From Geminocystis herdmanii PCC 6308 (GTDB taxonomy: Bacteria > Cyanobacteriota > Cyanobacteriia > Cyanobacteriales > Cyanobacteriaceae), in NCBI RefSeq assembly GCF_000332235.1, contig NZ_CM001775.1, positions 2,324,230 through 2,388,229 of the forward strand: a DNA stretch of 64,000 nucleotides, written 5' to 3'. Below are positions 37,733-42,805 of this stretch, in pieces. The notes beneath the pieces were generated by a model that searched no databases, was not told the DNA's origin, and worked only from the letters and a program-made list of their open reading frames with translations. Each line of letters opens with the position of its first letter. Positions within the stretch are counted from its first letter, which is position 1. The position numbers and the translations under genes were made by a program.

Positions 37733-37928
37733 ACCTCAGTTCGACATAAAGAAAATGATGAAAACTAGACAGGTGGACAAGTGGACAAGTGGACAGGGAG
37801 AAAAATTCTCAATATTTGATGTACTTTTGAGAGAATTTTATTCATTCATCAGAAATACAATCTTCCTGTCTTCCTGTCTTCGGAGTCTTCCAAGTCAGCC
37901 CTCACCTATTTTTATATCGAACTCAGGT
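37733..37928. mobile_element. MITE family A, copy 1 (196 bp)
   Basis: Ends ACCTCAGTTCGA and TCGAACTCAGGT form terminal inverted repeats that extend about 20 bp with a few mismatches. Compared with copy 2 at 41267-41463 I see one single-A length difference and no other change. The interior holds a GTGGACAA tandem and a CTTCCTGT tandem but no transposase. It is flanked by TAATACCTAA-like sequence on both sides, so the target duplication is ambiguous here. Confidence 0.85.
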
Positions 37929-39713: not shown

Positions 39714-39842
39714 TAAGTGAGTAGGCAAAATTAATTGTATGTTTACTTTATGAAAGGCAAAAGGCAAAAGGCAAGAGGCAACAAAGATGTAAGTTATTTT
39801 AATTAATTTTAAAATTCACAATCTATTTTGCATGAGTACTTA
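39714..39842. mobile_element. MITE family B, copy 1 (129 bp with flanking TA)
   Basis: I read it as identical to 49685-49813. The ends are imperfect inverted repeats sharing GCAAAAT and ATTGT at the same spacing (AGT-N6-GCAAAAT-N2-ATTGT). TA stands at both ends, as expected for an IS630/Tc1-type target duplication. The interior has AAAGGCA-type tandem units and no coding capacity. Confidence 0.85.
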
Positions 39843-39895
39843 CTTTATCTTTCTGTCTTTCTGTCTTTCTATCTGCCTGTCTTCCTAACATCTCA

Positions 39896-41196
<1,301 letters not shown>

Positions 41197-41623
41197 ATGA
41201 CAAACTCTGTTGACAATAGAAACAATACGGAAATTCAAAACTTACCTTGGTATAATCGCCCACTATACCTCAGTTCGACATAAAGAAAATGATGAAAACT
41301 AGACAGGTGGACAAGTGGACAAGTGGACAGGGAGAAAAAATTCTCAATATTTGATGTACTTTTGAGAGAATTTTATTCATTCATCAGAAATACAATCTTC
41401 CTGTCTTCCTGTCTTCGGAGTCTTCCAAGTCAGCCCTCACCTATTTTTATATCGAACTCAGGTACTATGGGGAAATCAATCTTTTTTCTCATGGTTGAAA
41501 TCTTTGATTACTATTCGTCAACAATATCCATTTCAAGAATATAAACAACCTGCCATTTTCAGTGAGGAGATACCCGGTTTAAATATTTACGAGAAATATC
41601 AAAGTCATGTAGAAAAAGAATAG
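41197..41623 (+). pseudogene. 74-codon hypothetical gene interrupted by MITE A
   Basis: The 5' part reads MTNSVDNRNNTEIQNLPWYN and continues RPL up to 41266; the 3' part runs from 41464 to the stop at 41621-41623. Removing the 197-bp MITE with one copy of ACTAT (202 bp) joins them in one frame, giving 74 aa with GNQSFFSWLKSLITIRQQYP across the middle and ending YEKYQSHVEKE. The 202-bp insert is not a multiple of three, so the gene is frameshifted. I do not recognise the intact protein; it appears soluble. Confidence 0.82.
41267..41463. mobile_element. MITE family A, copy 2 (197 bp) with ACTAT target duplication
   Basis: Same element as 37733-37928 with one extra A. ACTAT lies directly on both sides (41262-41266 and 41464-41468). 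Restoration of the host frame on removal fixes the element ends as ACCT...AGGT. Confidence 0.92.
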
Positions 41624-41724
41624 ACTGATAAGGGTTTTAATCCTTTAAAGGTTGAAGAATATTCAACTCCTACAAACTTCTTGGTTTATAATTTGAATTA
41701 AATGGAATATTTATTAATAACAAT

Positions 41725-42048
41725 ATGGATAATAACGATTGGTTAAAGCAATTATTAATGTTGGGAGTTGGCACAACATCTATGGCGGCGGAAAAAATAA
41801 AAGAAGCTAGTGATCAATGGGTAAAAGAAGGTAAAATTAATCCAGATCAAGCTAAGGGTATTGTGGATGATTTGATGCAAAAAATTCAATCAGATCAAGG
41901 TAATATCCAAACTCAAATGGAACGTCAAATTCGTAATATTTTACAAGATTTGGGTGTACCTCGTCAGTCTGAAGTTGATGAATTAAGGGGTAGGATCGAT
42001 CGATTGGAGCGTCAAATTAGAGATTTAGAGAACAAATTATGGCAATAA
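41725..42048 (+). CDS. Phasin-like coiled-coil protein
   Basis: A 107-aa protein. A short amphipathic N-terminal helix (about 1-25) precedes a charged helical region. The C-terminus is a regular coiled coil (about 75-107, VDELRGRIDRLERQIRDLENKL). This pattern matches small cyanobacterial phasin-family proteins that coat polyhydroxyalkanoate granules or act as general amphipathic helpers. No pha genes are adjacent, so granule binding is inference. Confidence 0.7.
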   Translation: MDNNDWLKQLLMLGVGTTSMAAEKIKEASDQWVKEGKINPDQAKGIVDDLMQKIQSDQGNIQTQMERQIRNILQDLGVPRQSEVDELRGRIDRLERQIRDLENKLWQ

Positions 42049-42167
42049 ATAATTAGTAATTAGCAAATATTTAGATTATTTTATAAGTAAATTAGGAATT
42101 ATTTTAGGAACTTTAGCCAATAGTTTAAAGTCTATAATTGATAATTTTATGTTTTTATTACCAATAA

Positions 42168-42650
42168 ATGTCAATCAATAAGTATTTTACTACGACAATT
42201 TTAACCTTGAGTGTATTTTCTCCCGTGAGTATCATCTTCTCTAATCCTGTTAATTCTCAAACAGATTATCTAGTTTTAGAAAAATCTATTCATCAAAAGG
42301 TGAATCAGTATCGTCAATCAAAAAAATTATCACCCTTGAAATTTGATTCTCGTATTAGTGAAGAAGCCAGAAAACATAGTCAAAATATGGCGAATAAAAC
42401 TGTACCTTTTAGTCATCAAGGATTTGAAACAAGGGTTGTTAATACTCGAATCAATTATCGTAGTGTAGCCGAAAATGTTGCCTATAATCAAGGACATAAA
42501 AACCCAGATCAAGTAGCTGTAGATGGTTGGATTAAAAGTTTAGGACATCAGAAAAATATGGTGGGAAATTTTAATTTAACGGGGGTGGGAGTGGCTAAAA
42601 ATGCTCAGGGGGAATACTATTTTACGCAAATTTTTATGTTAGAAAAATAA
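42168..42650 (+). CDS. Secreted CAP/SCP-domain protein
   Basis: A 160-aa protein with an N-terminal signal peptide (about 1-31, cleavage near VNSQT). A CAP domain follows: HQKVNQYRQSKKLSPL, SEEARKHSQNMANKTVPFSHQG, VAENVAYNQG and GWIKSLGHQKNMVGNFNLTGVGVA. The putative cavity His residues and Glu are present. Bacterial CAP proteins are extracytoplasmic with unclear enzymatic roles. Confidence 0.9.
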   Translation: MSINKYFTTTILTLSVFSPVSIIFSNPVNSQTDYLVLEKSIHQKVNQYRQSKKLSPLKFDSRISEEARKHSQNMANKTVPFSHQGFETRVVNTRINYRSVAENVAYNQGHKNPDQVAVDGWIKSLGHQKNMVGNFNLTGVGVAKNAQGEYYFTQIFMLEK

Positions 42651-42675
42651 AGGTTAATATAAGAGTTATAAAAAA

Positions 42676-42732
42676 GTTTGTAGTAATGGCTTTAGCCGTT
42701 TATTAATAAGTCTTAAAAGGCTTACTACGAAC
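42676..42732. repeat. Complete GTTYGTAGT palindromic element
   Basis: GTTTGTAGT and ACTACGAAC outer arms enclose ATGGCTTTAGCCGT and AAGTCTTAAAAGGCTT hairpins, between the CAP and CobT-like genes. Confidence 0.75.
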
Positions 42733-42805
42733 TTATATAAAATCTTTTTTGGAAAACTCTATTATTTTTATGGATAATTCTCAAGGTTAATTGAGTAGAT
42801 TACTG

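Follow-up and report, generated by a model that had tools for sequence, protein, structure and literature searches.

A putative IS982-type MITE in the internally deleted remnant of a gene of about 335 codons in the cyanobacterium Geminocystis herdmanii PCC 6308

The window, that is, the whole stretch of 64,000 nucleotides of DNA that we analyzed, is part of the single 4.26-Mb contig that makes up the G. herdmanii PCC 6308 genome (G000:C1:2324230-2388229). Between the genes for a light-dependent protochlorophyllide reductase and a phasin-like protein, it contains a short stub of pdxH and the two parts of a gene remnant, which we refer to as gene X, with a MITE and its target duplication lying between these parts. 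The features of this region are as follows (window coordinates, strand, description).

39896..40864, minus strand, light-dependent protochlorophyllide reductase, left neighbour (TIGR01289, 537.7 bits, cut-off 331.35)
41012..41081, minus strand, pdxH stub comprising roughly the first 22 codons (over 70 bp, 80% identical to the beginning of the complete gene, G000:C1:3294681)
41197..41266, plus strand, 5' end of the gene X remnant, 23 codons plus one base (matches residues 1-23 of the 337-aa protein of relative G003)
41262..41266, plus strand, left copy of the target duplication, ACTAT (exact)
41267..41463, plus strand, MITE of 197 bp, IS982-type as judged by its ends, ACCTCAGTTCGACA / ACCTGAGTTCGATA (comparison of 34 full-length copies)
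41464..41468, plus strand, right copy of the target duplication, ACTAT (exact)
41469..41623, plus strand, rest of the gene X remnant, to about codon 36 and then the last 38 or so codons (matches G003 residues 23-38 and 300-336)
41498..41507, plus strand, internal deletion junction, approximately TCTTTG/ATT (blastn coordinates and codon comparison)
41725..42048, plus strand, phasin-like protein, right neighbour (PF05597, 38.4 bits, cut-off 28.8)

As read from the sequence, the element in the middle of this region runs from ACCTCAGTTCGACA to TATCGAACTCAGGT and is bounded by terminal inverted repeats, with 15 of the 17 outermost bases agreeing between both ends. No transposase ORF was found inside it: no ORF of 40 aa or longer lies wholly within positions 41267-41463, and the sole ORF that overlaps the element (41323-41544) extends out into the gene. 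A search for structured RNAs over positions 39800-42800 gave no Rfam match up to an E value of 1. Short, bounded by terminal inverted repeats, present in multiple copies with target duplications and devoid of a transposase of its own, the element is a MITE; its size of 197 bp, its exact ends and the exact ACTAT duplications had been predicted originally and are confirmed here.

The genome contains at least 41 matches to this MITE, a lower bound as scoring covered the best 40 of 221 first-look candidates; they comprise the window copy, 39 other substantial matches and one piece of 39 bp. Copies at 34 of the 40 places compared are full-length, with sizes between 188 and 220 bp. Exact target duplications flank 27 of these 34 copies (6 bp in 13, 7 bp in 12, 8 bp in one and 5 bp in one), and none was found when we looked for them at the other seven; in a control, 14 of 1122 mismatched flank pairs matched over at least 5 bp. 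Eight copies of 196 bp are mutually identical, and the window copy differs from these siblings by a single extra A at position 41335, within an A run. Since there are no substitutions relative to the eight siblings, the insertion appears to be recent on the scale of sibling divergence, as had been predicted. Among 12 related genomes searched, with the best 40 candidates per genome scored, we found at least 42 matches in G001, at least 21 in G003, at least nine in G004 and one of 31 bp in G009; the search gave no match in the other eight. A literature search for this MITE found no paper on the element.

Several other copies deserve mention in their own right. A second copy in the window (37733-37928, 196 bp) has an 8-bp duplication. 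A second variant of the ends, with TGAAC in place of TTCGA at bases 8-12, occurs at both ends of three of the 34 full-length copies and at one end of five (L053, L060, L061, L063, L073, L074, L076 and L077); the two variants may reflect two transposase specificities. Another full-length copy (L066 402-595; G000:C1:1419196-1419389) was seen at the beginning of a gene that we take to encode a GNAT acetyltransferase and to adjoin an antitoxin-like gene.

The ends of the MITE link it to the IS982 family. Their pattern occurs 162 times in the genome at no more than one mismatch, compared with a single occurrence of the reversed control, and one resident element, about 1.26 kb long and bounded by ends of this kind, encodes a transposase of the IS982 family (NF033520, 250.9 bits, cut-off 130). 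A search of the genome for this family returned that full element and one fragment below the cut-off. At the right end, the MITE and the resident element are identical in 17 of 17 bases; the left end of the latter gives a blastn match to the MITE, but its first bases differ, and little similarity was detected by blastn past the outer 24 or so bases. Since its left end is damaged and no target duplication is visible, the resident copy may not itself be mobile. Relative G001 possesses five IS982 copies of 965 bp whose ends start with ACCTCAGTT and ACCTGAGTT, a design that they have in common with the MITE, and four of the five are flanked by duplications of 6 or 8 bp. In addition, the MITE ends begin with AC, as do those of 57 of 69 IS982 elements according to an excerpt of PMC7335449. 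Taken together, these features of the sequence mark the window element as an IS982-type MITE, and its ends in common with IS982 suggest that an IS982 transposase would move it in trans. An IS982 copy with an internal deletion, which retains its two ends and a small part of the transposase, was seen at about 1366-1716 of L151 (G000:C1 near 688 kb); it may represent a stage between IS and MITE.

The original prediction had taken the restored reading frame as proof of a 5-bp target duplication. This length is exact at the window copy, but it does not hold for the family: the window copy is alone with 5 bp among the 27 copies with exact duplications, the other 26 having 6-8 bp, and frame restoration at one site does not establish the length for all. 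With this distribution in mind, we regard it as possible, albeit doubtful, that the window duplication originally measured 6 bp or more and that the base beside the MITE was later lost. A plain 5-bp duplication needs no such additional event, and the lengths of 5-8 bp in this family fall inside the range of 2-10 bp that the excerpt of PMC7335449 reports for IS982 direct repeats when these are present, with 5 bp given for three elements. Both readings of the duplication give the identical empty site.

When the MITE and one copy of ACTAT are removed, positions 41197-41266 join 41469-41623 in a frame of 74 codons plus a stop, which bears out the frame restoration reported before; in this restored frame, the MITE separates the first base of codon 24 from the second. 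However, a frame that is regained on removal of a transposon need not correspond to a natural gene. Among the remaining 33 sites with a full-length MITE, eight yield a stop-to-stop frame that equals or exceeds the 79 codons at the window site (seven of these eight running off the fetched flank), so the length of the restored frame alone is weak evidence for a real gene. Stronger evidence comes from the relatives. All four relatives of the same genus (G001, G002, G003 and G004) have no insertion at the site and read WY[N/S]RPLWG[N/S][Q/K]SF there; because these homologues continue uninterrupted across it, the host frame is real, and the MITE does interrupt a coding frame, in agreement with the original prediction.

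The gene to which this frame belongs is, however, considerably longer than 74 codons. The 74-residue query found matches in 25 of 60 genomes, the own genome included, many of which are distant relatives of gene X. A homologue spanning RPLWGNQ, as anticipated by the original prediction, therefore exists, but in proteins of about 335 aa and not of 74 aa: in every relative from the same genus (four of four), both parts of the query match opposite ends of one protein of about 335 codons (337 aa in G003, 334 aa in G004). The window retains approximately the first 36 and the last 38 codons of gene X and no full-length open frame. By blastn, the two parts lie farther apart in the relatives than in the window, by 792 bp in G003, 783 bp in G004, 784 bp in G001 and 781 bp in G002, the last two figures including an extra base present in these genomes. 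An in-frame loss of 780-792 bp has thus occurred in the window, with its junction about 40 bp beyond the MITE, and neither the claim of a 74-codon host nor that of a gene broken by the MITE alone can be upheld. At the positions corresponding to the junction, the near side reads TCT in the relatives and the far side either CCTTT or TCTTT, which makes it plausible that the loss of about 790 bp arose between short repeats. The proximity of the junction to the MITE end might instead point to a single linked event, such as a transposition-associated deletion; since the junction lies clear of the MITE and a simple insertion leaves just such an exact duplication at both ends, we consider this quite improbable.

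What was lost from gene X can be judged from a predicted fold of the G004 protein (mean pLDDT 85.0), built from an alignment of six of nine loci, with L165 (frameshifted), L169 and L171 left out; a separate homologue alignment contained six homologues. In this model, the first 28 residues are disordered and the chain is mostly helical up to residue 332. The block missing from the window corresponds to about residues 37-296 of the G004 protein. Since hardly anything of the predicted helical core is left, a working 74-aa version of the gene X product is unlikely. Database searches did not connect gene X to a known family: the G003 protein matched no Pfam or NCBIfam family at an E value of 0.01; Pfam searches with six relatives at an E value of 1 gave 12 families, each matching one member only (best E value 0.0011); the best E value in a sequence search of the PDB was 0.011; and Foldseek found no match to the fold in the PDB at an E value of 0.001 or lower. 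Gene X appears to represent an unnamed family of about 335 aa, predicted to be mostly helical, to which these searches assign no function. We also considered that a whole copy of gene X might reside elsewhere in the genome; this was rejected, as the search turned up, apart from the remnant, just two full-length sequences that are distantly related (28% and 23% identity).

Decay of gene X is not restricted to the window. It is broken in three relatives by routes other than that seen here: G001 and G002, which are different species, keep both ends of the gene and, as read from their sequences, carry one extra A in a run of A8 or A9 at the same place, and the copy in G011, a member of a different genus, contains two stop codons, TAG and TAA. 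The split loci lie at G001:C1:3521316-3522312 (L107, L134) and on G002:C51 (L113). The extra A in G001 and G002 could stem either from independent frameshifts or from a slippage site. A gene that is switchable or conditionally dispensable, repeatedly inactivated by different routes and possibly read through by slippage at the A run of G001 and G002, is one reading of these data that we hold to be unlikely.

The selective constraint on gene X was assessed from pN/pS values, for which 53 of the 74 codons of the remnant were used. The remnant gave 0.24-0.49 against its relatives, compared with 0.33-0.48 among the relatives and 0.05-0.13 for the phasin, and its 74 codons contain no other stop or frameshift. 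With a frame that is otherwise clean and pN/pS values like those of its relatives, the remnant does not resemble a long-decayed pseudogene; by these measures, gene X seems weakly constrained, and nothing points to prolonged decay before it was lost. The similar pN/pS values and the single clean frame regained on MITE removal would also suit a natural, intact gene of 74 codons disrupted by the MITE alone. We judge such a gene very improbable in view of the match of its parts to both ends of one gene of about 335 codons in G001, G002, G003 and G004 alike, and of the near-complete lack of the predicted helical core in a 74-aa version.

The surroundings of gene X have been rearranged as well. Gene X is arranged head-to-head with pdxH in five of seven relatives (G001, G003, G004, G008 and G011, not G009 and G013). 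In alignment with G003, the window shows the order pdxH stub, old intergenic stretch and gene X, and the stub has one extra base in a single-letter run (compared by eye). The full pdxH gene of this genome, at 3294681, has no gene X beside it, and tblastn detected none within its surroundings. Homology to the upstream side of the protochlorophyllide reductase gene stops near position 40952. Two placements of gene X as a native neighbour were rejected: it adjoins the phasin gene in none of 11 relatives (by coordinates), and it is adjacent to the protochlorophyllide reductase gene in none of the four same-genus relatives. Since the pdxH stub has diverged, its sequence suggests that pdxH was rearranged before the MITE inserted.

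We therefore favor, with a probability of roughly 90%, the reading that an IS982-type MITE lies inside the remnant of a gene of about 335 codons that separately lost about 790 bp in frame, the two events having occurred in either order. According to this reading, the MITE would have inserted in codon 24 of gene X and duplicated ACTAT; the separate loss would have taken away almost the entire predicted helical core, leaving the two ends; and a rearrangement would have left the 5' stub of pdxH beside gene X, with the full gene elsewhere. These are known kinds of event, and the locus looks like a case of ordinary gene decay. The analysis describes a cyanobacterial MITE family of IS982 type, for which the ends and duplications of 34 full-length copies were measured, and draws attention to a protein family, unnamed and predicted to be helical, whose gene is broken in several of the related genomes.

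IS982-derived MITEs are already known. MITECca01 of a Cardinium endosymbiont, as described in an excerpt of PMC9769881, resembles the family studied here in that it is short, lacks a transposase, occurs in many copies and has ends resembling those of a resident IS982-family element. It measures about 240 bp and resides in an endosymbiont together with seven intact copies of its parent, whereas the MITE described here measures 188-220 bp and is found in a free-living type of cyanobacterium with one full parent whose end is damaged. With the IS982 family as a whole (PMC7335449, in excerpt), the MITE has in common the ends starting with AC and direct repeats within the published size range; the resident parent encodes a transposase that scores as IS982, and the MITE, unlike IS982, carries none. 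The mcy genes of Baltic Anabaena, inactivated by MITEs according to an excerpt of a review (PMC10969869), are likewise a case of a cyanobacterial gene naturally interrupted by a MITE. In contrast to these genes, the interrupted gene X also lacks most of its length, so that its loss is not due to the MITE alone.
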